NCBI GenBank assembly: GCA_035577985.1
Contig: DATJZY010000093.1
Coordinates: 1-64,000 of the forward strand
From: Candidatus Eisenbacteria bacterium
GTDB taxonomy: Bacteria > Desulfobacterota > Binatia > DP-6
Direction: 5' to 3'
Length of the DNA: 64,000 nucleotides
Below the pieces are notes generated by a model that was not told where the DNA came from, did no database searches, and saw nothing but the letters and a program-made list of their open reading frames with translations. The position numbers and the translations under genes were made by a program. Shown piece after piece: positions 3,940 through 41,528 of this stretch. Within the stretch, counting starts at the first letter, position 1; each line of letters starts with the position of its first letter.

Positions 3940-3985
3940 CCCTTCGATTTACAAGCGCCATCCCGCGCGATAGCCACCCGGGTCG

Positions 3986-5347
3986 ATGCGCCCACTACCG
4001 ATCGTCCTGCTCCTGCTGGCCTCGCTCGCGTCCGTCTGCACGGCGGGGGCCGCGGATCTCGCCGTCCTGACACGCGGGAAGGTTCTCCGTCTCGACGCCG
4101 GGTCCGATCCGGGAAAATCCCGGGGCCTCGTGCGTTTCGGGCACGACGCCGCGCTCGCCGCGGCGCCCGATCCCTCGTGCCCGTCCGCCTCCGCGTTCGA
4201 TCTCGGGCTCTTCACGGTGGCGGCCAACGCGGTCGTCCGGAACGAGAAGGTCGCCCTCGAATGCGCGAAGTGGCGGAAGACCCGCACGGGCTGGCGCTAC
4301 GACGATCCGGACGCCGCCGGCGGCGTCCGTCGGATCACCTACGGACCCCGGGGCCTCGCCGTCCGCCTCGTCGGCCCCGCGGCGATGCCGGCCCCCGGCC
4401 CCGTCGGCTACGCGTTCGTGTGGTTCGAGGTCGGCGCGATGCGATTCCACGGCCGCTTCCACGTCTTCGAGGCGAACACGGCCGACCGGGTGCGAAGCCG
4501 GAGACTCTCGAAGGCCGCCGGCGACGGCGAGACGCGTTTCTGGGCGATCATGTGGGGAGACGATGCTTCCGAGACGGCCGTGCAGGAGACCTCGGCGCTC
4601 CTGCAACGCGCCGCGAAGCGCTCGAAGGCGGACGCCCGATCGCGCTTCCTCCTCGGCATGCTCCATCTCTATCGTTTCGGGCAGCTCACCGAGCGCTTCA
4701 GCGCGGCCAGCGAGGCCGGCCGCGCCGAGATCGCCGCGGCCGTCGCCGCCTTCGACGACGCCGAACCGCTGCTCTGGAACCGGACGACGCGCGTCGGCGA
4801 TTCCCGGATGCCGGGGTTCGCCGCCGCCGCGCGCTACGCGCTCGCCGTCGTCACCGCCGACGAGGCGCTCCGGCAGCGGGCGCTCGCGGATCTCGCGTAC
4901 GCGGTCGAGATCAACGCGTTCTTCAACGTGTTCGACCTGATGACGGTCCTGCAGGCGGAGCCCGCGGGCAGCTCGGCGTTCCAGCAGGCGTTCGCCGACC
5001 TGAGCGCGTACATCGGCGATCCGAACACGCTCGCGTGCGCCGTCACCCAGCCGGAGGTGTGCACGAACGCCGGGCTCGCACCCACGGCGCTTCCCGGCAC
5101 GTTCGTGATGTTCGGCGACGCCTACGCCAAGAGCGGCGACGCCGCGACGGCGAAGTACTGGTACCAGTTCGGGATCGCCGCCGAAGCGGGGTGGGCCTTC
5201 GAGGGCCTCGCCGCGGAACGCCTGGCCGGCGCCGATGCGCGGGTCGCCGCGTACCAGGACGTGGATCCCGCCAACGACCCGCCCATCATCGGCGCAGGCC
5301 CCGAGGCCTGCGCGTCCTGCCACCACCGACCGCTCACGGGCGAGTAG
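3986..5347 (+). CDS. Exported protein with a C-terminal haem-c-type CxxCH motif
   Basis: A 453-residue protein beginning with a clear Sec signal peptide (MRPLPIVLLLLASLASVCTA). The body has no domain I can name; residues ~190-430 are largely helical and Ala-rich with a TPR-like look (DARSRFLLGMLHLYRFGQLT, GDAATAKYWYQFGIAAEAGW). The extreme C-terminus carries CASCH (residues 442-446), a single covalent haem-binding motif as in c-type cytochromes, followed by only seven residues. Export plus CxxCH would put it in the periplasm. A lone motif at the very end could also be a metal site or chance. It stands alone on its strand between the bioD fragment and the DUF1254 fragment. Confidence 0.7.
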   Translation: MRPLPIVLLLLASLASVCTAGAADLAVLTRGKVLRLDAGSDPGKSRGLVRFGHDAALAAAPDPSCPSASAFDLGLFTVAANAVVRNEKVALECAKWRKTRTGWRYDDPDAAGGVRRITYGPRGLAVRLVGPAAMPAPGPVGYAFVWFEVGAMRFHGRFHVFEANTADRVRSRRLSKAAGDGETRFWAIMWGDDASETAVQETSALLQRAAKRSKADARSRFLLGMLHLYRFGQLTERFSAASEAGRAEIAAAVAAFDDAEPLLWNRTTRVGDSRMPGFAAAARYALAVVTADEALRQRALADLAYAVEINAFFNVFDLMTVLQAEPAGSSAFQQAFADLSAYIGDPNTLACAVTQPEVCTNAGLAPTALPGTFVMFGDAYAKSGDAATAKYWYQFGIAAEAGWAFEGLAAERLAGADARVAAYQDVDPANDPPIIGAGPEACASCHHRPLTGE

Positions 5348-5374: not shown

Positions 5375-6061
5375 TCACGACGCCTCGCGCACGCGCGGAA
5401 TCTTCCAGCTCCCGTTCAGGATCGACGGGGACTTGTCCTTCGGCCAGTACATCCGCAGCATCAGGATGAAACGGCCGGCGGGCGCGGGCAGCCAGTTCGA
5501 TTCCTTGTCCGCCCCCGGGGACTCGTGCTGGATGTAGAGGTCCACCGAGCCGTCGGGATTCGTCTTGAACGTGTTGCGCTGGCTCACGTTGTAGCGGTCG
5601 AGCGCGTTCGCGACGAAGAAGTAGTCCGCGTCGTACATCGTGAGCGACCAGAAGCCGTTCACCGGCGGCAGCTCGCCCTTCTTGAAGTGCATGACGTACT
5701 TCTTCGCGCCCGTGTAGTCCTGGAGGATGTCGGGCCCCTCGGAGGTGGGATAGACCGCGTCCTCCGGACGGTTCGCGCCGAGGCCGATCGCCGTGATGAG
5801 CGCCCGCTGCCGGTACGCGGGGCCGTAGAGCCCGGTCTTGGTCGTGAACAGCCAGCCGTCCTGGAGCGTCAGGTCGCGGGCCAGGATGCCCTCCTTCATC
5901 CAGCGCATGATCGCGTGCTGGGCCGGCTTCGGCGCCTCGTTGATGCCGGCGACGATCGCGGGCGAGACCTTAGAGGCGTCGAAGTCCTGGCCCGGCACGA
6001 TGCCGATCTTGGCGAGCTTGGCCACCATCGCCGCGTCGGCGGCGGCCGGAGGATTCTTAGA
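5375..6061 (-). pseudogene. DUF1254/DUF1214 protein, C-terminal fragment
   Basis: The open frame encodes about 220 residues of the C-terminal half of DUF1254/DUF1214 proteins: NPPAAADAAMVAKLAKIGI near its start, then TKTGLYGPAYRQRALITAIG, the conserved VNGFWSLTMYD motif and a C-terminal PAPAGRFILMLRMYWPK. Full-length members have about 450 residues with an N-terminal DUF1254 domain and usually a signal peptide, both absent. The homologous frame continues a little beyond the ATG at 6028 and then becomes unrecognisable near 6060, so this looks like a truncated copy. The 50-bp attachment repeat lies about 290 bp from its broken end. Function of the family is unknown. Confidence 0.75.
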
Positions 6062-7173: not shown

Positions 7174-8697
7174 TCACGGTGCGCACTCGGCGGGGGCTGG
7201 CGCCTTGCTCGCCTTGAACTGCTTGTCCACCTTCCACGCGGTCGTGCCACCGAATCGCAGGCAGTACCGGTGGGCGCCGAGCGTCACCGCCACATCGACG
7301 GGCGATGGATCGACGGCCAACCAGTGGCCGAGTCCGACCCCCTTGCCGGTGACCTTGAGGGACTTCCCCGCCTTCACCACCACGAGCGTGATCGGGCCAC
7401 TCTTGTCCTTGTACTTGTAGCCCTTGCCCTGCCCCGACTTGCCGACCAGCGACCAGTTCGAGGCCGGCAGGACGTAGGTGTCGTCGAAGCCGCCGTCGAC
7501 GCTACGTATCCGCACTGTGGCGCCTGCCGACGTCGGGTCGTCCTCGCTGTCGTTGCCGGCCCCGAGCGTCAGCGCTGTGTCTTTCGATCCGACGGAGAGC
7601 CCGCCCTTGGCAGGAGCGCCGGCCTTCGTCTTGAGCAACAGCGTGCTGCCCGTGAGGAGGTCGGTCGTCACGGGGGGCAGCGTCGTCGTCGTCACGCTCG
7701 TCGTGGTGGTCGATGAGGTGGGGACGGACGTCGAAGAGGTCGAGGTCGTGACGACGCTGGTGCTCGTCGTCGAGGAGCCGCCGATGGCCACGGTCACCGT
7801 CGCATAGAGGCGTGCTCCCGAGCACGCGCCCGCAGTGCCCGTCGCCCCGTTCACATTGGTGCACGGCTGCCCACCGGCGCCATTCGCGCTGTTCCCGGAC
7901 TCGCCGCCGACCGCGATCGTGTAGTCACCGGCCGCCAGCGCCAGCGTCAATGTTTCGCTGCTACCGTTGTAGCCTGCGACGTGTCCCGGGTTGGAGAAAC
8001 CCCCCGTGGTCGTCGTACCGCAACTGGTGCCGGAGCATGGTGTGTTGCTGACGGAGGAGATGTAGTCGATCTGACTCCAGTCGCCAGACGCGTTCGCCAT
8101 GCTCCAGTTCGCGAAGGCGTCGAATTGACCGAAGTACGTGTTGTTGACCGTGTCTCGGTATCCGTCGTGGGGCGTGTACACCCAGCCGACCGGCCCGGCG
8201 TCTCTCGGCGAGGGGAGTGGCGCAAAGGTGTTGGCGTCGACGGGCTGCAACGGATCACCCGACGTGTCGTCATGCCCCTGGGGCACCAAAGTCCCCGCAT
8301 ACACGCTGAAGGCAGGGTTCAGCACGGTGTCCAGAACGGGCGTCGCGTTGCTCGTCGACGTCGGCTTGTAGTTCGTCGCCGTGATGGTGACGACCGCATC
8401 ACCGCTCAGATGGAACACCCAGAACTCGGCGTTGGTCGTGATATAGTGACTGTCGGCGAGCGTCGCCTCAGTGCCATCGTACCAGCCGTAGCGGGTGAAG
8501 ATGTTCGAGCTCTGGCAGAGAACCCCCTCGGCGACGGAGTGGCACGGATCCGTGATCGCAGTCCCGCTCGCGGTCGTCTCTTTGAACACCGTTCCGGAGT
8601 TCATGTCGTAGTTCGACACGTGAGCGTCCGCCGGGCCGCCGACGGCGAGCCAGAGTGCGGCGAGACCGACGGCGCGTAGGCCCGTGCTCGAGCTCAT
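7174..8697 (-). CDS. Exported protein A of a three-paralogue family (HDGYRDT family)
   Basis: 507 residues, started at ATG 8697 because AGAAGGAGA lies just upstream and a Sec signal peptide follows (cleavage near residue 25). The N-terminal module (26-305) carries motifs shared with the next two genes: LNPAFSVYAG (126-135), GHDDTSGDP (141-149), TPHDGYRDT (175-183) and GQFDAFANWSM (190-200). A Ser/Thr-rich linker (308-345) joins it to a beta-rich C-terminal module (346-507) shared with the protein encoded at 10428-11804, containing GKGYKYKDKSGPI and GAHRYCLRFGG. I know no characterised homologue; both modules look like extracellular beta-sandwich domains. It is last in a minus-strand run of five exported-protein genes, about 47 bp after its neighbour. 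Confidence 0.75.
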   Translation of the reverse strand: MSSSTGLRAVGLAALWLAVGGPADAHVSNYDMNSGTVFKETTASGTAITDPCHSVAEGVLCQSSNIFTRYGWYDGTEATLADSHYITTNAEFWVFHLSGDAVVTITATNYKPTSTSNATPVLDTVLNPAFSVYAGTLVPQGHDDTSGDPLQPVDANTFAPLPSPRDAGPVGWVYTPHDGYRDTVNNTYFGQFDAFANWSMANASGDWSQIDYISSVSNTPCSGTSCGTTTTGGFSNPGHVAGYNGSSETLTLALAAGDYTIAVGGESGNSANGAGGQPCTNVNGATGTAGACSGARLYATVTVAIGGSSTTSTSVVTTSTSSTSVPTSSTTTTSVTTTTLPPVTTDLLTGSTLLLKTKAGAPAKGGLSVGSKDTALTLGAGNDSEDDPTSAGATVRIRSVDGGFDDTYVLPASNWSLVGKSGQGKGYKYKDKSGPITLVVVKAGKSLKVTGKGVGLGHWLAVDPSPVDVAVTLGAHRYCLRFGGTTAWKVDKQFKASKAPAPAECAP

Positions 8698-8744
8698 TTG
8701 AATTCTCCTTCTGCGGTGGACTGTATCGACCTCGTCCAGCGCAC

Positions 8745-10331
8745 CTAGTTCATCACACAGGACGCAGGTGCCCGCTTCACGGTTCTGGCGGCCTGCGTCT
8801 CCTGAAATCTCACCGAGACACCGCAGGGGACGGCGGATTCCACGACGGGGAACTCCGCCTTCCACCGGCCTGACGCCTCCAGCCGTGCGGTTCCCAGGAC
8901 TGCTCCCCCTGTGTTGCCGTCGTCCAACCGGACATCGAGGGTTCCCGACAGGAGCGCGCCGCGCTCCTGCTTGGTGACGATGGGCAGCAGCCGGATCTTC
9001 CCGCTTGCGACGAGCGTCCCGGTGGCTGCGTTCCATTGCGCGTGCGACACCTTGATCGACCTGACCGCCCGGGCCGACGAGCGCCCCGCCGGGAAAATCC
9101 GGATGGCGGTCTTGACGACCGCCGACTCTCGGCCCAGTCCACTGGTTTCCACCGCGCGGACCGACAACCGAAGGATCTTGTTGGCCAGTGACGGCGGCGG
9201 CACCCACTGCAGCGTCGCAGCGAACTTGTGCGTCGCCGGGTCGTAGGTCGTGTCGGAGACCGCCGCTCCGCGCGGTCCCTTCAGCAGCTCGATGGCGACG
9301 GGATCGGCACTGCAGCTGAACGCCGATATCCGGACCCAGGAGAGCGCCTTGCCGACCTCCCCGTCCAGCGGGTTCCCGAGGACCGCGATCTGTGGGCCCG
9401 TATCGCCCGCACACGCGGGCGGCTGGGGGACCGTCTTGATGGCGATGCTGAGCCTGCCGCCAAAGAAGCCGTTCGGCAGGCAGTCCGCGCAGCCGCCACC
9501 GATGACCACCGTGTAGTCGCCTGGCTCGAGATCCTGATCCTCGAGAATCTCGGTCGTGGTGTCGGGCGTCGCGCCGATTCCAGCGTGGTCATTCTTGTGT
9601 CCGACATAGAATATCTTGGCCCAGTCACCCGCGGGATTCCCGTCGGGACACTTCGCGACGGGACAGCCGCTCGGAAGTGTCGGCTGCCCCGGTACGGCCC
9701 ATTCGTTCCCCATGCTCCAATCGCCGAGCGCATCGAACTGGCCGACGAACGGGTTGACGGGAGAGCCGTCGAGGTCGGCATTGCCGCCGTCGTTGGCCGG
9801 TGAGAACAGCCCACCGGTCGTGGAATACCCGTGCGTGTCCCTGTACCCGTCGTGCGGCGCGTACACGTGGCCCTCCGGGGCGACGTCCACTGGAGACGCG
9901 ACCGGAAGAAAGTCGATGTCGTCGAGCGGGTTCGCCGGGTCGTACGGGGTATCGTCGTGGCCGTACAGCGGCATCAGGCCTCTGTAGAGGCTGAACGCGG
10001 GATCCAGCCCGGCGGGATACGTCTGGCCGTCCCGCTGCACCGGCACGGTTTCGAGAGTGAGCGTCACGAGCGACTCGCCATCGAGATGGAACTTGTAGAA
10101 GTAGCTGCCCGCGCCTAGCAACCGGTGGCTGTCGGCGAGCACCGGTCGCGTCCCGTCGGCCCAGGCGCGGTTTCCGGCCCAGTAGTCCTCCACCGGTGCT
10201 TGGGGAGTAACCTCCTTGTAGAGACAATGCGCGAGACCCTGCCTCGCCGTGGCGAACAGCAGGATTCCTGCCAGCAGTCGACTGGTGAAGCGATTCCGGT
10301 GAGGGCGCCGTGCCCTCACCGGATCGCTCAT
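8745..10331 (-). CDS. Exported protein B of the HDGYRDT family
   Basis: 528 residues from the ATG at 10331; the frame is open further upstream but the Sec signal (RLLAGILLFATARQGLAH) fits this start. The N-terminal module matches the paralogues on either side: LDPAFSLYRGLMPLYGHDD, YAPHDGYRDT, GQFDALGDWSM, then PDGNPAGDWAKIFYVGHKND and EPGDYTVVIGGGC. Unlike them it lacks the ~165-residue C-terminal beta module. In its place is a segment of about 190 residues that looks like Ig-like/cadherin-type repeats (PQIAVLGNPLDGEVGKALSW; GTLDVRLDDGNTGGAVLGTA). The paralogue therefore has the same sensing or binding module with a different distal domain. Function is unknown; export is inferred from the signal peptide. 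Confidence 0.72.
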   Translation of the reverse strand: MSDPVRARRPHRNRFTSRLLAGILLFATARQGLAHCLYKEVTPQAPVEDYWAGNRAWADGTRPVLADSHRLLGAGSYFYKFHLDGESLVTLTLETVPVQRDGQTYPAGLDPAFSLYRGLMPLYGHDDTPYDPANPLDDIDFLPVASPVDVAPEGHVYAPHDGYRDTHGYSTTGGLFSPANDGGNADLDGSPVNPFVGQFDALGDWSMGNEWAVPGQPTLPSGCPVAKCPDGNPAGDWAKIFYVGHKNDHAGIGATPDTTTEILEDQDLEPGDYTVVIGGGCADCLPNGFFGGRLSIAIKTVPQPPACAGDTGPQIAVLGNPLDGEVGKALSWVRISAFSCSADPVAIELLKGPRGAAVSDTTYDPATHKFAATLQWVPPPSLANKILRLSVRAVETSGLGRESAVVKTAIRIFPAGRSSARAVRSIKVSHAQWNAATGTLVASGKIRLLPIVTKQERGALLSGTLDVRLDDGNTGGAVLGTARLEASGRWKAEFPVVESAVPCGVSVRFQETQAARTVKRAPASCVMN

Positions 10332-10427
10332 GAGCCACCCGATACGCGCGGATTGCGAGCGCATCGGGAATGTGTCGAGTGAGGATTCCACTCCGATAGC
10401 CCTACCAGTTCGACTCGACACCTCGGT

Positions 10428-11804
10428 TCAAGGTGCGCACACCACCGGGGCTGACGCCTCCTTCGCACTGAACTGCTGGTCCGCCTTCCATTTGGTGACA
10501 CCACCGAACTGGAGGCAGTAGCGATGGCCTCCGAGCGTGAGCGTCACCCGGAGCGGCGCCGGGCTCACCGTGAGGGACTGACCGAGCCCCGCGCCCTTGC
10601 CGGTGATCTTGACGAGTTTGCCAGCGGTGATCGTCGCGCTGCCGATCGGGCCGGCGGCGAGCGTCTTATCCTTGTACTTGTAGCCCTTCCCCTCGCCCGG
10701 CTTCCCGACGAGCGCCCAGTTCGCCGCGGGCAGGTCATAGAGCTCGTCGAAGTCGCCGTTGATGCTGAAGACGCGGACCGTAGCGCCGACCGACGTCGGA
10801 TCGTCCGCGCTGCCGTTCCCCGCCCCCAACGTCACCGCGGGGTCCTTCGACTGGAGCGAGAGCTTGCTCTTCGTGGGTGCACCCACCTTCGTCTTGAGCG
10901 TGATCTTCTTCCCTGTGAGCAGGTCCGAGGAGAGCCCGGGGGCTGCGGTCACGGCGAGCGTGATCCTGCCGCCGAAGCCTCCGAAAGCGCTGCACCCTGG
11001 GCATCCTCCACCGACGATGACGGTGTAATCGCCCGCGTCTAGCGGCTCGTCCTGCAGGACCTCGGCGGTCGTATCGGCCACCGCGCCGACGCCGACGTGA
11101 TCGTTCCGATGTGCGACGTAGTAGATCGTCGCCCAGTCGCCGACGGGATTGCCGTCGGGGCACTCATCGACCGGGCATGCACTCGGAATGGTCGGCTGGC
11201 CGGGTATGCCGTAGGCGTTCGCCATGCTCCAATCGCCAAGCGCATCGAACTGGCCGGCGTACGGATTGATCGGATAGCCGACGTTGAAAGGATCACCGCC
11301 GTCGTTGTCCTCCGTGTAGAGTCCACCGGTGGTGGAGTAGTTCAGGGTGTCCCTGAACCCGTCGTGCGGAGTGTAGACGTGGCCCGGAGGGGCGGCATCG
11401 ACGCGGGAGGCCATCGGCAGGAAATTGACGTCGTCGACGGGATTCAGCGGATCGAAGGACGCATCGTCGTGCCCCTCGAGCGACATCAATCCTTTGTAGA
11501 GGGTGAATGCCGGATCCAGGCCGAGGTCGACGAATGCATCCGGAATCGCAATCCCTTCCACACTGATCGTGACCAGCGAGGGACCGTCCAAGTGGAACTT
11601 GTAGAAGAAGTCTCCCGAGCCCAGGCAGTGGTGACTGTCGCCGAGAATGTTCCGGGTGGCGTCGGCCCAGCAGGCGTTACCGGTCCAGGCGTCATCGACC
11701 GGCGTCCCCGGCGTCAGCACCTTGTACTTGTTGTGCGCGAGTGCCGGGCTGCCAACGAGAAGCAGCAGCGCGAACATGAGTGCAGGGAAGGTTCGATTCA
11801 TCAT
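10428..11804 (-). CDS. Exported protein C of the HDGYRDT family
   Basis: 458 residues with a clear signal peptide (MMNRTFPALMFALLLLVGSP, cleavage after residue 23) and an AGGAGA ribosome-binding site before the ATG at 11804. The N-terminal module shows LDPAFTLYKGLMSLEGHDD (96-114), TPHDGFRDT (145-153), GQFDALGDWSMAN (184-196), PDGNPVGDWATIYYVAHRND (216-235) and DAGDYTVIVGGGC (256-268). Residues 293-458 form the same C-terminal module as the protein encoded at 7174-8697: DPTSVGATVRVFS, GKGYKYKDK, GGHRYCLQFGG. Conserved Cys pairs (CPVDEC; CPGC) suggest disulphides or metal binding. The gene lies 31 bp after the cytochrome-like gene at 11836 and about 97 bp before its next paralogue, consistent with one transcript. 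Confidence 0.75.
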   Translation of the reverse strand: MMNRTFPALMFALLLLVGSPALAHNKYKVLTPGTPVDDAWTGNACWADATRNILGDSHHCLGSGDFFYKFHLDGPSLVTISVEGIAIPDAFVDLGLDPAFTLYKGLMSLEGHDDASFDPLNPVDDVNFLPMASRVDAAPPGHVYTPHDGFRDTLNYSTTGGLYTEDNDGGDPFNVGYPINPYAGQFDALGDWSMANAYGIPGQPTIPSACPVDECPDGNPVGDWATIYYVAHRNDHVGVGAVADTTAEVLQDEPLDAGDYTVIVGGGCPGCSAFGGFGGRITLAVTAAPGLSSDLLTGKKITLKTKVGAPTKSKLSLQSKDPAVTLGAGNGSADDPTSVGATVRVFSINGDFDELYDLPAANWALVGKPGEGKGYKYKDKTLAAGPIGSATITAGKLVKITGKGAGLGQSLTVSPAPLRVTLTLGGHRYCLQFGGVTKWKADQQFSAKEASAPVVCAP

Positions 11805-11835
11805 CGGTTCTCCTCATGGGTTAGCCGGAGGGAAT

Positions 11836-12468
11836 TCATGGGGCAGTCACCGGAACGCAGCGGAATGGGGGGCCGCCCGTCTCCCCCTTCACGACCGTGC
11901 AGTCCGCGTCCTTCTTCCGCATCAGCGGCTCGTCGTTCCGCCAGTCGGCCTTGTGGCAGGACTTCCGGCGGGCGGCCGTGGTCGCGCCGATCGCCGCACA
12001 GACCTCCGCGTGTGAGCAGCCCTGCTGGTCGACGGCTGCGCCAGCGGGTGTCGCCGGACATTTGTCCTCCGCGTTCCGGAGCCCGTCGCCATCGGAGTCT
12101 TCCGTGAGGCTGGCGAGCGCGTCCTCCGCGTCACCCACGTCGGCATGGCACTCCTCGAGCGGCGTCAGGGGAACAAGCCGAAGCACCTTCTGCATCGCGG
12201 TCACGATCGTGGGATCGGACGCGTTTCCGAGGCTTCCCGACGGCGCCGGCGGTATCGCGCGCGCGCCATACACCGCCTTGATTTTCGGAAGCAGGAAATC
12301 GTACCCCTGAAACCCCTCGACGTGGCAGGCGGTGCAGGCGCTGGCTCCCACTGCCGCCTTGATCGTCTCGTTGGCGGACGCGGGCCACGCGAGCAGACCC
12401 GCGGCTACCAGCAGTAGACAGCCGAGCCGCCGCCCTCTCCCCCGACCGTTGGAGCGCGTCGCCGTCAT
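11836..12468 (-). CDS. Exported mono-haem cytochrome-like protein with a Cys-rich C-terminal module
   Basis: 210 residues. After a signal peptide (about 1-32) comes CTACH (residues 45-49), a classical covalent haem-c attachment site in the mature N-terminus. A central Asp-rich DSDGDGLRNAEDKCP is a thrombospondin-type-3-like calcium loop. The last ~75 residues form a Cys-rich module (TPAGAAVDQQGCSHAEVCAA, KADWRNDEPLM, DC, CVPVTAP) repeated almost motif for motif at the C-terminus of the protein from 12465-13739. The start codon overlaps that gene's stop by four bases (ATGA), so the two are translationally coupled. Haem binding is a family-based expectation. Electron transfer or a structural surface role are both possible. 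Confidence 0.72.
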   Translation of the reverse strand: MTATRSNGRGRGRRLGCLLLVAAGLLAWPASANETIKAAVGASACTACHVEGFQGYDFLLPKIKAVYGARAIPPAPSGSLGNASDPTIVTAMQKVLRLVPLTPLEECHADVGDAEDALASLTEDSDGDGLRNAEDKCPATPAGAAVDQQGCSHAEVCAAIGATTAARRKSCHKADWRNDEPLMRKKDADCTVVKGETGGPPFRCVPVTAP

Positions 12469-13739
12469 GGGGCGTCCGTCGCAACGCAGTGAAGCGTCCG
12501 TCCACCGCTCCTGCCTTTGGCGACCGCGCAGTCCGCACCCTTCTTGGTCATCACGGGCTCGTCGTTCTTCCAGTCGGCCTTGCGACACGCTCGCCGGCCG
12601 GCAGGGGTGGTCGCATCGAACGACGCGCAGAATTCCGCCCGCGAGCAGCCCACCTGGTCGACCGCCGCCCCCAGCGGCGTCGACGGGCAGCCGTCGTGGT
12701 CGTCGGCTCGACCGTCGCCGTCCGCGTCGGGGACGGCGCTCGTCATCCGCGCCTGGACCGTGACGAGATCCGCCCGGCACTGCGCCAGGTCGTTCTCGGG
12801 ATCCGTCGGGAACGGGTCGCACGCGTCGCCGACGCCGTCCCCGTCAGTGTCGCGCTGATCGGGGTCTGCCGCGCCCGGGCAGTCGTCCAGGTCGTCCGCG
12901 ACGCCATCGCCATCGGCATCGGCTGGCGCGACACCCGGCGTGATCGTCACGCGGTACCTGCCAGCCACGCCGTCGAGGGCGCCCACGAACAGTGTGTACT
13001 TGCCGTCGTGGTCGGACTGCAGACGGAACGTCGTGGAGACCGTCTCGCCGGAAGTGGATGCGACCCTGTAGTCGAGCAGCTTCAATCCCGCCGAGCCCAG
13101 AGGATCGTCGACGGGGTGTGGCGACGTGGTGTAGGTCTGATGCCGTTCCGACGACGCGTTGGTGTCCCACCCTCCGTACATTGCGAACGCCAGGCGCATC
13201 GGCGCGGTGTTGGCAGGGTCGTCGTCCACGGTGACGGCCACGTACACGGGACCGCCGCCGAGGACGGCGTCGAGGGGCGCGAAATGGATGAGGCCGTAGT
13301 CGAGCCCGTGGCCCCATCCTTGATCGCCGTTGGCCGGGTCGGTCCACGAGCGCCCTCCCACCGCCAGCACGCGATCCGTCGCCAGATCGGGGTCGTGAAC
13401 AGCATTGTAGGCGCTCACCTGTCCCAGCAAGCTTTCCGGGGCCGGGCTTGCGCCATTGCCCGTCTGCACGACGCGCGGCGTGACACCGTCCGTCATCAGG
13501 GCATACCACTGGACCGGGAGGCCGCCGACGTAGCCGGTAACGTCACCGTTGGTCCAGATGGCCCCCGGAGGAGTCGCCGGGAATCCGTCGGCGCCGTTCG
13601 TGCTGCCCGCGATCCCGGCACCGTAGCCGGCGAGGTTATAGGTCGTCTGTGCGTGCGCGCACGGACTCCCGAGCAACACGGCCCCAACGAGGAAGGAGAA
13701 TCCGAGTCGCAGGACGGTCGCCTCCCCCTCTGGTTGCAC
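12465..13739 (-). CDS. Exported thrombospondin-type-3 repeat protein with the same Cys-rich C-terminal module
   Basis: About 424 residues. The start is uncertain: GTG at 13739 is in frame, but GGGGGAGG sits 8 bases before a CTG at 13712 that would begin the signal peptide (LRLGFSFLVGAVLLGSPCAHA) directly. The mature part has a ~250-residue beta-rich domain (PVYVAVTVDDDPANTAPMRL; HDGKYTLFVGALDGVAGRYR), then Asp-rich thrombospondin-type-3 loops (DADGDGVADDLDDCP, DTDGDGVGDACD, DADGDGRADDHDGCP) that bind Ca2+ in this family. It ends with the Cys module (TPLGAAVDQVGCSRAEFCAS, KADWKNDEPVM, HCVATDAP). It is first in the five-gene run, so a promoter probably lies above 13740, though none is obvious. 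Confidence 0.72.
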   Translation of the reverse strand: MQPEGEATVLRLGFSFLVGAVLLGSPCAHAQTTYNLAGYGAGIAGSTNGADGFPATPPGAIWTNGDVTGYVGGLPVQWYALMTDGVTPRVVQTGNGASPAPESLLGQVSAYNAVHDPDLATDRVLAVGGRSWTDPANGDQGWGHGLDYGLIHFAPLDAVLGGGPVYVAVTVDDDPANTAPMRLAFAMYGGWDTNASSERHQTYTTSPHPVDDPLGSAGLKLLDYRVASTSGETVSTTFRLQSDHDGKYTLFVGALDGVAGRYRVTITPGVAPADADGDGVADDLDDCPGAADPDQRDTDGDGVGDACDPFPTDPENDLAQCRADLVTVQARMTSAVPDADGDGRADDHDGCPSTPLGAAVDQVGCSRAEFCASFDATTPAGRRACRKADWKNDEPVMTKKGADCAVAKGRSGGRTLHCVATDAP

Positions 13740-33864: not shown

Positions 33865-35229
33865 GTGACGCAGGCGCATCGCAGCTCGGCGGCGACGAAT
33901 CTCGAGCGCCCTTGGCGAGACGTGCTCGCACGCCTGGTGTCGCACGCAACCGAGCCCGCCGCGCGCGACATCCTGCGACGTCTCCGCCTGCGCGCCGTGA
34001 CGCCGGCGCAGGTCGTCGTCGAAGCGCCGAACCGTCTCGTGCTGTCGTGCGTGAACGACAACTATCTCGGCAAGCTGCAAGATGCCGTCGCCGCCGTCAT
34101 GGGTCCGCGCCAGGTCGTCCTCGACCTCGCTAGCCGCGAGCAGGGCGAGCTCTTTCCCAACCTTCTGCCGCGCAAGCCCGAGCGCAGGCCCGTCGCCATC
34201 GGTACGCCCCTCAACCCGCGCTACACGTTCGGGAGCTTCGTCATCGGCGCGTCGAACCAGTTTGCGCACGCGGCGGCGCGAGCGGTGGCGACACAGCCGG
34301 GCGACCACTACAACCCGCTCTTCATCTACGGCGGTGTTGGTCTCGGAAAAACGCACCTCGTGAACGCCATCGGGCACGCGCTGCTCGATCACGATCCGAC
34401 GCGCAAAATCGCCTATCTTTCGGCGGAATCCTTCATGAACGACCTCATCTCCTCGCTGCGGCGGGACCGGATGGAGGCCTTCAAGAACCGCTTCCGGCAG
34501 GTGGCCGTCCTGATCCTCGACGACGTCCAGCTCCTGGCTGGTCGCGAGCGCACGCAGGAGGAGTTTTTCCACACGTTCAACAGCCTTTACGAACAGCGCC
34601 GGCAGATCGTTCTCACGTCCGACCAGGTGCCCAAGGACATCCCGCATCTGGAAGAGCGCCTGCGCAATCGTTTCGAGTGGGGACTGATCGCCGACATCCA
34701 GGCGCCCGACATCGAGACGCGCGTCGCCATCCTCGAACGCAAGGCGGAGCTGGAATCGATCACGCTCGATCACGAGGTCGCGATCTTCCTCGCCGAGCAC
34801 GTCGCCTCCAACGTCCGCGAGCTCGAAGGTGTGCTCACCCGTCTGGGCGCGCACGCTTCGCTCAGCGGCGGGCCGATCACGATCGACTACGCCCGCGACC
34901 TTCTGCGGACGACCGTCCGGTCGCTGCGGCCAGCCGTCACGGTCGACGCCATCATCGACGCCGTCTGTGCCCAGTTCTCACTGCGCTCCACGGACCTGCG
35001 CTCTCGCCGGCGGAGCAAACACGTCGCACAGCCGCGCCAGATCGCCATGTATCTCTGCCGTCGTCTCCTCGGCGCCTCGTTGCCCCGCATCGGACAGCTC
35101 TTCGGGCGCGACCACTCGACCGTCCTCCATGCCGTCGCGACGACGACGCGCCGTCTGAAAGAAGACGTTGCGCTCCAGACCATCGTCACCGCCCTCGAGC
35201 ACGACCTCCGCGACGAGACCAACACCTGA
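33865..35229 (+). CDS. dnaA: Chromosomal replication initiator DnaA
   Basis: 454 residues. Domain I (about 1-80) is diverged; the linker is short. Domain III carries Walker A in FIYGGVGLGKTHLVNAIGHA, Walker B in VAVLILDDVQLLAGRERTQE and sensor motifs to about residue 345 (LEERLRNRFEWGL). Domain IV ends in the DnaA-box-binding signature GRDHSTVLHAVATT. It binds TTATCCACA boxes and opens oriC. The GTG at 33865 lies in a short promoter region shared with hemL. Confidence 0.97.
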   Translation: MTQAHRSSAATNLERPWRDVLARLVSHATEPAARDILRRLRLRAVTPAQVVVEAPNRLVLSCVNDNYLGKLQDAVAAVMGPRQVVLDLASREQGELFPNLLPRKPERRPVAIGTPLNPRYTFGSFVIGASNQFAHAAARAVATQPGDHYNPLFIYGGVGLGKTHLVNAIGHALLDHDPTRKIAYLSAESFMNDLISSLRRDRMEAFKNRFRQVAVLILDDVQLLAGRERTQEEFFHTFNSLYEQRRQIVLTSDQVPKDIPHLEERLRNRFEWGLIADIQAPDIETRVAILERKAELESITLDHEVAIFLAEHVASNVRELEGVLTRLGAHASLSGGPITIDYARDLLRTTVRSLRPAVTVDAIIDAVCAQFSLRSTDLRSRRRSKHVAQPRQIAMYLCRRLLGASLPRIGQLFGRDHSTVLHAVATTTRRLKEDVALQTIVTALEHDLRDETNT

Positions 35230-35411
35230 AAAAGGGCGTGGACGGGCGTGGACAACCCGCCTGCGATCCACTAGGTGTGATCGCAGGAATAGCGGCGTTT
35301 TCCACGGCGTCCACACCCCTTACGACGGTGACGGTTTTCTCTCTGAAGGATCTACGGAACACCTACAGCGTATGCGGATAACTGGTAGATGTCGGCGCGG
35401 CGAGGTGGTGT
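35230..35411. other. dnaA-dnaN intergenic region, candidate origin element
   Basis: A 182-bp gap with several weak DnaA-box-like sequences (CGTGGACAA, TTTTCCACG, CGTCCACAC, TGCGGATAA) and a perfect 9-bp inverted repeat CCTGCGATC/GATCGCAGG at 35260-35287. In many bacteria oriC lies next to dnaA, so this gap is a candidate. None of the boxes is perfect, so the case is weaker than for the boxes at 23158 and 23352. It must also hold the dnaN promoter. Confidence 0.4.
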
Positions 35412-36524
35412 ATGGAGTTCAGCGTCAAGCGTGAAGATCTGCTCCACGGCTTGTACTTGGTACAGGGCGTGGTCGAGCGGCGAACACCACAGCCCATACT
35501 GGCCCACGTCCTGATCGAGCCGGACGAAGACGGCATCGCGCTCGCGGCGACCGACATGGAGGTGGGTCTGCGGTGTAGGATTCCCGCCAAGGTGAAGAAG
35601 GGTGGGCCAGTCACCGCGAATGCACGCAAGCTCTACGAGATCGTCCGTGAGGTGACGGCCGAGGAGGTCACCCTGAAGGCCAATACGGCCGGTTGGGTCG
35701 ACCTCGTCGCGGGGCGCTCGAAGTTCAAGGTCGTGAGCCTCGAGCCGAAGGAATTCCCCGTGATCCCGGTCGGCCCCGGGGCGACCGCCGGGACGGCGAT
35801 CAAGATCGCGGCAGGGACCCTGCGGGAGATGATCGACAAGACCCTGTTTGCGGTGTCGACCGACGAGACCCGGTTCAATCTCTCGGGGGTGTACCTGGAG
35901 AGCTCGGACGGCGGCATCCGGATGGTGGCGACCGACGGCCACCGCCTGGCGATGATCGAACGGACGCTGAAGGCGCCGAAGCTGGCCCGCGGCGTGATCA
36001 TGCCACGCAAGGGCCTGGTCGAGGTCCGCAAGCTGATCGAGCAGCAGGAAGAGGTCGAGCTGGCCTTGGTGGTGGCTGACAAGGACGTGCGGGTCCAGGC
36101 CCCCAACGTGTCGTTCTTCATGCGGCTCGTGGAGGGAGAGTTTCCGGACTACAAGCAGGTCGTTCCGGGAAGCACGCGGTCCAAGGTTCGGATGAACCGC
36201 GAGGACTTCCTTGGGGCTCTGAGGCGGATCGCCCTGTTGGCGAGCGAGCGCTCACACGGGGTGAAGCTCGGCCTCGACAAGGGCACATTGGAGGTCGCTG
36301 CGAGCAACCCCGATCAGGGGGAGGCGAGCGAGGACATCGAGGTCTCGTACGCCGGCGAGCCGATGACGATCGGATTCAATGCGCGCTACTTGCTCGACGT
36401 CCTGGGTGTTCACGCCGCCGGCGACGTCGTCGAGATGGGCCTCACCGACGAGGTCGGCCCCGGGGTCATCCACGGGTCGCAGGACCCAACTTTCACGTAC
36501 GTGCTCATGCCGATGCGGCTCTGA
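35412..36524 (+). CDS. dnaN: DNA polymerase III beta subunit (sliding clamp)
   Basis: 370 residues, the expected three-domain clamp. The start MEFSVKREDLLHGLYLVQGV follows a GGCGAGGTGG sequence. Domain landmarks are RTPQPILAHVLIEPDEDGIA, DETRFNLSGVYLES, ATDGHRLAMIERTL, VEGEFPDYKQVVP and the C-terminal SQDPTFTYVLMPMRL, the consensus clamp end that lines the hydrophobic partner pocket. It tethers the polymerase to DNA. Confidence 0.97.
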   Translation: MEFSVKREDLLHGLYLVQGVVERRTPQPILAHVLIEPDEDGIALAATDMEVGLRCRIPAKVKKGGPVTANARKLYEIVREVTAEEVTLKANTAGWVDLVAGRSKFKVVSLEPKEFPVIPVGPGATAGTAIKIAAGTLREMIDKTLFAVSTDETRFNLSGVYLESSDGGIRMVATDGHRLAMIERTLKAPKLARGVIMPRKGLVEVRKLIEQQEEVELALVVADKDVRVQAPNVSFFMRLVEGEFPDYKQVVPGSTRSKVRMNREDFLGALRRIALLASERSHGVKLGLDKGTLEVAASNPDQGEASEDIEVSYAGEPMTIGFNARYLLDVLGVHAAGDVVEMGLTDEVGPGVIHGSQDPTFTYVLMPMRL

Positions 36525-36574
36525 GGCTCGTTCCAAGGGCCCGGCGAAAAGTAGCACCATCCATCCCCCAACGG

Positions 36575-39036
<2,462 letters not shown>

Positions 39037-39038
39037 GC

Positions 39039-41528
39039 ATGGAGCAGGATCCCCGCCGCCTCCCCGTCAACATCGAGGACCAGATGCGCGAGTCCTACAT
39101 GGACTACGCGATGTCGGTCATCATCGGTCGCGCCCTGCCGGACGCGCGCGACGGCTTGAAGCCGGTTCACCATCGGATCCTCTACGCGATGTTCAACGAG
39201 GGGCTCCTCCACAACCGGCGCTACTCGAAGTGCGCGGGCGTCGTGGGCGAGGTGCTGAAGCGCTACCACCCGCACGGCGACTCGGCGGTGTACGACGCCC
39301 TGGTTCGCCTCGCGCAGGACTGGAACGTGCGCTACCCGCTGGTCGACGGCCAGGGGAACTTCGGATCGATCGACGGTGACCCGCCGGCCGCCTATCGTTA
39401 CACGGAATGCCGGCTGACGGCGCTGGCCGAGGAGCTCCTCGCCGACATCGACAAGGAGACCGTCGACTTCGCGCCGAACTTCGACGACTCGACGACCGAG
39501 CCGACCGTCCTGCCAACGAAGGTGCCGAACCTTCTCGTGAACGGCGCCGCCGGCATCGCCGTCGGCATGGCGACGAACATCCCGCCGCACAATCTGCGCG
39601 AGGTGTGCGATGCGCTGATCGCGCTCATCGAGACGCCCGAGCTCACCGTCGAGGAGCTCATGCGCTACATCCCCGGCCCGGACTTCCCGACCGCCGGGTT
39701 CATCTGCGGGCAGGGTCCGATCCGGGAGGCGTACACCGAGGGCCGCGGCATCCTCACCATGCGGGCGCGGGCGACGATCGAGACCGACGACAAGAGCGGC
39801 AAGTCGTCCATCATTGTCCACGAGATCCCGTACCAGGTGAACAAGGCTCGGCTCATCGAGCGCATCGCCGAGCTCGTGAACGAGCGCCGGCTCGACGGCA
39901 TCGCCGACCTGCGCGACGAGTCCGATCGCGAGGGCATGCGGATCGTCATCGACCTCAAGCGCGACGCGGTCGCCGACGTGCTGCTGAACCAGCTCTACAA
40001 GCACACGCCGCTGCAGGAGTCGTTCGGCATCAACATGCTCGCGATCGTCGACGGGCGGCCGCAGCTCCTGTCGCTGAAGGACGCGCTCCAGGTCTTCCTG
40101 AAGCACCGGCGCGAGGTCGTCGTCCGCCGGACGACGTACGATCTTCGCAAGGCCGAGGAGCGCCTGCACGTGCTGGCGGGCCTCAAGATCGCAGTCGAGA
40201 ACCTCGATCGCGCCATCGCCATCGTTCGCGGTGCCGCCGACCCGGCGACGGCGCGCGAGGGCCTCATGGCGGCCCTCGGCCTCTCACAGATCCAGGCCCA
40301 AGCGGTCCTCGACATGCGCCTGCAGCGCCTCACTGGCCTCGAGCGCGAGAAGATCATCGAGGAGTACCAGGAGACCGAGCGGCTGATTGCGCGCTACCGC
40401 CAGATTCTCGCGGACGAGCGGGAAGTCTTGAAAATCATCGCCGCCGAGCTCGCGGACATCAAGACGAAGTACGGCGATCCGCGCCGCACGCAGATCATCG
40501 ACGAGGCCGCCGAGCTCTCGGCCGAGGATCTGATCGTCGAAGAGGACATGGTCGTCACGATCTCCCACGAGGGATACGTGAAGCGGAATCCCGTCGGCCT
40601 CTACCGCGCGCAGCGCCGCGGCGGTCGTGGGAAGATCGGCGCGACCACGCGGGACGAGGACTTCGTCGAGCATCTCTTCGTCGCCTCGACGCACTCCTAC
40701 TTGCTCTTCTTCACAACCACCGGGAAGGTCTACTGGCTGAAGGTGCACGAGATCCCGCAGGCGGGCCGTGCCGCGCGCGGCCGCGCTGTGACGAACCTCC
40801 TGCAGCTGAAGGCCGAGGAGAAGCTCTCCGCGTTCCTCCCGGTACGGGAGTTCAAGGAGGACTGCTACCTCGTCTTCGCGACCCGGCGGGGCCTCGTCAA
40901 GAAAACCGACCTCATGCAGTACTCGTCACCACGACCGAGCGGCCTGATCGCAATCGCCCTCGAGGAGGGTGACGAGGTCGTCGGCGTCCGGCTGACCGAC
41001 GGGCGCAGCGAGGTGATCCTCTCGACCGCCGAGGGCCAGGCAATCCGCTTCGAGGAGGCCGAGGTCCGGCCGATGGGTCGCTCGACGTACGGCGTGCGCG
41101 GCATGACCCTGGACGAGGGCGATCAGGTCGTCTCGATCGATCTCGTGGAGACCGGCGCGTCGCTCCTGGCCGTCGCCGAGAAGGGCTACGGCAAGCGGAC
41201 CGAGATGGACGAGTACCGTCGTACCCACCGTGGCGGCAAGGGCATCATCACCATGAAGACGACCGACAAGACCGGCCGGGTCGTCGGCGTTCGCATGGTC
41301 ACCGACGACGACCAGATCATGCTGGTGTCGAGCGGCGGCAAGGTGGTGCGCCTGCGCGTCAACGAGATCCGGGTGATCGGCCGCAACACGCAGGGCGTTC
41401 GACTCATCGACCTCGAGGAGGGCGAGCGCGTCGCCGCCGTCGCGCGCCTGGCCGAGCGCGAGGACGAGCCCGACAACGGCGAGGCCCCAGCGGCGGAGCC
41501 AGCGGCCGACGACTCCACCGAGTCGTAG
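39039..41528 (+). CDS. gyrA: DNA gyrase subunit A
   Basis: 829 residues. The winged-helix breakage domain carries the quinolone region [19 protein letters not shown] with the usual Ser and the active-site Tyr in [17 protein letters not shown]. Coiled-coil tower about 350-500. The C-terminal pinwheel has the GyrA box [10 protein letters not shown] needed for DNA wrapping and identifies gyrase rather than topoisomerase IV, followed by six beta blades and an acidic tail. It is cotranscribed with gyrB. Confidence 0.98.

Follow-up and report, generated by a model that had tools for sequence, protein, structure and literature searches.

A five-gene run of exported proteins with a putative MopE/CorA-like metal-binding fold in a Candidatus Eisenbacteria genome

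Positions 7174-13739 of a 64,000-nucleotide stretch of Candidatus Eisenbacteria DNA (GenBank assembly GCA_035577985.1, contig DATJZY010000093.1, positions 1 to 64,000; hereafter the window) hold five genes on the minus strand, each encoding an exported protein put together from modules that recur within the run. What do these proteins do, and do they do it together? The reading we favor, with somewhat better than even confidence, is that the run encodes a secreted, probably surface-exposed set of proteins that bind a transition metal, most likely copper, in which gene 1 is of the MopE/CorA type and genes 3-5 form a branch that has an N-terminal His and lacks the kynurenine motif. Homology, conserved motifs, the fold match, gene linkage in relatives, and tails that differ between lineages are observed; from these we infer the horizontal origin of the N-terminal modules of genes 3-5, the identity of the metal, the geometry of its ligands, the function in uptake, and the role of gene 2.

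The architecture first described in an initial annotation is borne out. A signal peptide is recognizable by eye on each of the five proteins. Genes 3 (10428..11804, 458 amino acids), 4 (8745..10331, 528 amino acids), and 5 (7174..8697, 507 amino acids) share an N-terminal domain, here called the N-module (mature domains at 10950..11735, 9417..10229, and 7783..8622, respectively), with pairwise identities of 45-60%. Genes 3 and 5 also share a C-module of the GKGYKYKD family (10431..10937 and 7177..7680; 62% identity), which in gene 5 follows a Ser/Thr-rich linker; gene 4 ends in an unmatched region that had been described as Ig-like. Genes 1 (12465..13739, 424 amino acids) and 2 (11836..12468, 210 amino acids) share a Cys-rich C-module (12468..12728 and 11839..12105; 60% identity), the former with thrombospondin-3 (TSP3) loops (Pfam PF02412) and the latter with a single CxxCH heme-binding motif (CTACH, codons 12322..12336). 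Beyond TSP3 and weak partial matches, Pfam, NCBIfam, and PHROGs returned nothing for the five proteins. The genes are coupled or closely spaced, with a 4 bp overlap (ATGA) between genes 1 and 2 and gaps of ∼31, 96, and 47 bp thereafter. Neither a promoter-like site nor an excess of terminator-like sites over shuffled sequence was found, so that a single transcript for the run is plausible.

Fold and candidate metal sites

Two AlphaFold models of N-modules were compared by Foldseek with 350,542 PDB chains; the fold result thus covers the N-module, not gene 1. The model of the gene 4 N-module (predicted template modeling score, pTM, 0.74; predicted local distance difference test, pLDDT, 68.6) has MopE at rank 1 (E 1.5e-4, probability 1.00) and CorA at rank 3. 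For a compact Nitrospira relative (pTM 0.76, pLDDT 76), three CorA chains take the first three places (E 7e-7 to 2e-6) and MopE the fourth, with PPC domains next at E 1.5e-4, ∼200-fold below. The input alignments of the two models overlap, and the models are therefore not fully independent. Taken together, they suggest that the N-module is a PPC-like beta-sandwich with CorA and MopE as its closest solved relatives.

Copper proteins that are secreted or surface-located, MopE and CorA hold Cu(I) by two His residues near a kynurenine made from Trp, the site residues being Trp130-x-His132 and His203 in MopE and Kyn62-x-His64 and His114 in CorA (PMC3423442, PMC3912023). The W-x-H precursor of the kynurenine occurs in none of 41 N-modules, where D/N-S/T-H is found instead. 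Invariant across 19 divergent copies are His1, Trp23, His35, Tyr82, Gly84, His91, and Asp92, with Asp at position 33 in almost every copy. The [DN][ST]H and HD motifs are nearly invariant in the family; in gene 4 they read DSH (His35) and HDD (His91). We propose His1, His35, and His91 as the metal ligands of the N-module. If His35 is the equivalent ligand, order and spacing would place Asp33 in the position of the Trp.

From sequence, a His directly follows the signal peptide in ∼80 of 83 N-module open reading frames (ORFs), genes 3, 4, and 5 included; the detector accepted 81 of the 83, and with a few false picks and a few missed true ones on inspection, ∼80 is a reasonable figure. Under stricter detection, 34 of 44 N-module proteins have His after the cleavage site versus 13 of 121 other exported-looking ORFs from the same loci, and some of these other ORFs are probably weaker members of the family. 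Metalloproteins have been discovered by searching for an N-terminal His behind a signal peptide, a feature that works as a predictor of metal binding (PMC12537917); no mention of the N-module family was found in the main text of that paper with the terms used. The proteins of genes 3-5 probably bind metal through the first residue of the mature chain.

The alternative we take most seriously, although we consider it unlikely, is that the N-module is a generic surface beta-sandwich of the PPC/DVUA0089 kind, serving adhesion, flocculation, or matrix building, and that His1 is a by-product of the signal peptide. PPC is the next structural match, there are weak sequence matches to PPC and DVUA0089 (NF038127), and relatives carry PEP-CTERM tails, which are typical of exopolysaccharide-associated proteins. 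Such a protein would, however, leave unexplained why His1 and two further His residues are invariant across very divergent copies, why CorA and MopE rank so far above PPC, and why di-heme cytochrome c peroxidase (CCP)/MauG genes are neighbors.

If a metal is bound, which one? Nickel, cobalt, or zinc would be the metal in a somewhat less probable account, modeled on DUF4198, DUF6702, and the Ang domains, families that share the N-terminal His logic and have also been linked with further metals (PMC12537917). Copper is favored for three reasons: the CorA/MopE-like fold, the di-heme CCP/MauG neighbors, and the PmoA/AmoA encoded in five of the eight N-module genomes. We think it improbable that the proteins are histidine-brace copper enzymes, that is, oxidases or peroxygenases resembling lytic polysaccharide monooxygenases (LPMOs) that act on extracellular polymers and bind them with multidomain tails: an N-terminal His and an internal His in a beta-sandwich would suit such an enzyme, and the glucose/sorbosone dehydrogenase genes in some clusters could supply electrons, but the best fold matches are copper-binding proteins rather than LPMOs and the loci read contain no obvious polysaccharide-degrading neighbors.

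Gene 1 brings in a candidate kynurenine-type site. Its mature N-terminal domain (12930..13649) contains W-G-H (residues 142-144, codons 13308..13316), the same pattern as Trp130-x-His132 of MopE and Trp62-x-His64 of CorA (PMC3423442, PMC3912023), and a second candidate ligand, His200 of an RHQT motif (codon 13140..13142), at +56 from the W-x-H His. The gene 1 family is found in four of 118 class genomes, three of its copies being in the genome studied here; W-G-H and the His at +56 recur in each of the six class members. This spacing falls between those of CorA (+50) and MopE (+71), the likeness to the MopE site being one of pattern and spacing only. A PDB sequence search with the gene 1 and C-module profiles gave chance matches only.

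The two families are joined by a bridge protein (locus L167, 7686-8807, genome G050) that matches both the N-module profile (9e-6) and gene 1 (1.4e-4), despite a direct profile comparison of the two that is weak by itself; the bridge protein has W-T-H plus His at +59. The gene 1 N-domain thus appears to be a remote N-module relative. The N-module was originally assigned to three proteins, and it is present in those three, but with gene 1 the fold appears to be common to four. All of the exported proteins except that of gene 2 look distantly related to MopE and CorA.

Possible redox partners, C-terminal modules, and origin

In the initial annotation, the run looked like a surface or periplasmic system with a redox protein, and recurrent co-location of the HDGYRDT proteins with the CxxCH partner was named as support for it. 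Gene 2 does not provide that support: its heme domain is an orphan, with no clear relative in the class, and we rejected the gene 2 protein as a recurrent partner. The system itself is partly upheld, in another form than proposed: N-modules recur in clusters, and gene-1-type genes adjoin di-heme CCP/MauG genes in this genome and in relatives (G001, G050, and contig C173 of the genome itself), whereas gene 2 is an orphan and the C-modules are scattered. The mopE and corA genes also have di-heme cytochrome c peroxidase genes beside them and are cotranscribed with these (PMC3423442, PMC3912023).

We examined the neighbors in 28 N-module loci, which are not all independent, some coming from near-identical strains. 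Genes for a spermidine-synthase/major facilitator superfamily (MFS)-like protein occur in 12, for DUF3570 in 10, and for CCP/MauG in four or five; redoxin, ApbE, or glucose/sorbosone dehydrogenase genes are found in some, and locus L220 has most of these. The spermidine-synthase/MFS-like gene is a fusion that stands beside N-module genes in both Methylococcales and Nitrospira (L148, L149, L152, L153, L212-L214, L217, L219-L221, L227). In L149, L151, L212, and L220, DUF3570, redoxin (with ApbE too in L151 and L220), and CCP/MauG genes are grouped with N-module genes, apparently as a wider conserved cluster. The window itself has no spermidine-synthase/MFS-like, DUF3570, redoxin, ApbE, or glucose/sorbosone dehydrogenase gene and offers gene 2 only, with its one CxxCH.

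That the five genes are chance neighbors thrown together by domain shuffling, with no common function, is a doubtful explanation: it would fit the C-modules scattered over the class, the orphan heme domain of gene 2, and the lack of N-modules in any relative, but gene-1-type and N-module genes adjoin one another in three other genomes (L155, L156, L217) and the genomes first examined have their N-module genes in clusters.

The shared C-modules are class-wide tails without linkage. The GKGYKYKD module, ∼165 residues long, is found on many unrelated exported proteins (for example, at loci L064-L078 and L005-L033), with 25 copies in the genome studied here and up to 31 per genome among the 39 of 78 searched genomes that have copies. 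It stands at the extreme C-terminus in 36 of 43 closed reading frames and elsewhere in seven, a placement that speaks against its being a sorting signal that is simply cleaved off; one of the seven precedes a glucose/sorbosone-dehydrogenase-like protein. Judged by sequence appearance, the passengers ahead of it include beta-helix, lamin-tail-like, and other proteins, and we regard the module as a candidate lineage-specific surface-retention domain. A Ser/Thr-rich linker was rejected as a general feature of the module (only seven of 45). Its repetition across the genome would fit Binatia/Binatota. The Cys-rich C-module is full-length in a handful of class proteins, mostly gene-1 relatives. Large exported beta-propeller proteins with two CxxCH motifs and a C-terminal GKGYKYKD module adjoin gene-1 relatives (L167 8431-12189 and L166 2780-6079). 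With the C-modules spread over so many unrelated proteins of the class, we dropped the idea, also from the initial annotation, that they are components of a linked system; for these modules, the scatter that the annotation had itself named as a refutation is what is seen.

Where, then, did the N-modules come from? They occur in no other genome of 145 class relatives searched and have no convincing match among 395 genomes of the phylum; plasmid and phage collections gave no match, nor did peptide-pattern scans of genome and viral collections using the three window copies. The family was recovered with the looser DNA motif GQFDx[LF][GA][DN]W (one genome per species) followed by a profile search. 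The hosts found are Methylomonas koyamae, a second Methylomonas, a Methylococcaceae metagenome-assembled genome (MAG), Nitrospira, Methyloversatilis, and two gammaproteobacterial MAGs. The eight N-module genomes have 3-13 matching places each, mostly clustered, and in the order of Methylomonas 25 of 151 genomes have matches, one of them 16. In Methylomonas koyamae R-45383, one N-module gene (L083 5694-7176, minus strand) is split over two frames, with an intact copy in a relative (L222).

Gene 5 falls inside a supported clade of Methylococcales copies in a maximum-likelihood tree built from 71 copies, with 55% identity to the most similar row, and genes 3 and 4 pair together in a different clade; at least two N-module lineages would therefore have reached this genome. 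Horizontal transfer is the simplest reading, with methanotroph- or Nitrospira-like bacteria as the probable source and the tail domains of the recipient lineage as replacements. A VPLP/VPVP/VPEP-type tail ends 49 of the 68 copies outside the window, several of which score as PEP-CTERM or VPLPA-CTERM. No such tail was matched on the window proteins, in which the class-wide C-module (in gene 4, another domain) stands where relatives have the sorting tail.

Two other exported or neighboring products lie near the run. An exported protein at 3974..5344 on the plus strand carries at its N-terminus a divergent C-module copy (E 1.2e-6) and, near its C-terminus, one CxxCH; Pfam gave it no name, and it is a possible associate outside the operon. 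A DUF1214 protein (PF06742) is encoded downstream of the cluster at 5375-6028 (minus strand). Farther away, 33865-41528 (plus strand) contains dnaA, dnaN, gyrB, and gyrA by sequence and looks like a replication-origin region.

A working model and what weighs against it

As we picture it, the set would serve copper capture, either on the cell surface or within the periplasm. In genes 3-5, His1, freed by signal-peptide cleavage, would act with the His of the D-x-H motif and that of the HD motif in place of W-x-H. Gene 1 retains W-x-H...H, and the di-heme CCP/MauG proteins encoded beside its family are of the kind thought to oxidize that Trp. The variable C-terminal domains may determine where each protein is retained.

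Several results weigh against this picture. Confidence in the models is moderate (mean pLDDT 69 and 76; TM ∼0.4-0.5), and an hmmsearch of the N-module profile against PDB sequences gave no match at E 10, MopE and CorA included. MbnP (PF20243) did not match the five proteins; a genome search for it matched nowhere, controls included, and is thus uninformative. The direct profile comparison of gene 1 with the N-module gave P 0.087. Position 1 is Gln in the window's gene 1 protein, where five of the six class members of its family start with His1. No CCP/MauG gene lies in the window, and the metal could be nickel, zinc, or another. Nor is there a PmoA match in this genome. We accordingly rejected methane-monooxygenase supply as the local purpose; the local use may instead lie in other cuproenzymes, storage, or detoxification.

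More tentatively, with confidence just short of even, we suggest that the N-modules make up a large branch of the MopE/CorA fold, apparently not described before, in which copper is held through an N-terminal His without kynurenine. It would be present in up to 16 copies per genome in methanotrophs, and also in Nitrospira, near DUF3570, spermidine-synthase-like, and di-heme genes, and would have passed by horizontal transfer into a further lineage of phylum rank, in which local C-terminal domains took the place of the sorting tails.

Few organisms are known to have MopE or CorA, and how methane and ammonia oxidizers collect extracellular copper is still an open question. If the suggestion is true, a simpler candidate site on the same fold, with an N-terminal His and no oxidized Trp, exists in many copies in methanotrophs and AmoA-carrying Nitrospira, which would widen the picture of copper handling, and the N-module family would allow a clean test of what kynurenine contributes. 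The tails provide a natural exchange comparison, since one secreted domain is joined to PEP-CTERM-type tails in certain lineages but, in another, to a C-terminal domain that is class-wide and unnamed.

Comparison with known systems

The initial annotation knew no description of such a set. This goes too far, since MopE/SACCP and CorA/CorB are described copper systems that correspond to it in fold, in the W-x-H...H pattern of gene 1, and in having a cytochrome neighbor (PMC3423442, PMC3912023). MopE of Methylococcus capsulatus Bath, with SACCP, resembles the set in the fold of the N-module, in the W-x-H plus later His of gene 1, and in the di-heme CCP that adjoins gene 1 relatives. It differs in that N-modules have His1 instead of W-x-H, in ligand spacing, and in having no detectable sequence similarity. 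CorA of Methylomicrobium album BG8, with CorB, ranks first among the fold matches to the compact relative (E 7e-7) and is of similar size, and it has W-x-H with a later His at +50 versus +56 in gene 1; unlike CorA, the N-modules lack W-x-H and the window has tandem paralogues with large C-terminal domains.

With CopC, LPMO, DUF4198, DUF6702, and Ang-1/2, the N-modules share a His right after the signal peptide and an internal candidate-ligand His, although those proteins belong to other folds and families and the N-module family was not found among those of PMC12537917. The likeness to the DVUA0089 family is weak and located near the C-terminal strands, at 18.8 bits against a cutoff of 29. Finally, N-module relatives resemble PEP-CTERM/VPLPA-CTERM surface proteins in their tails, whereas the window proteins end in the class-wide C-module or other domains.

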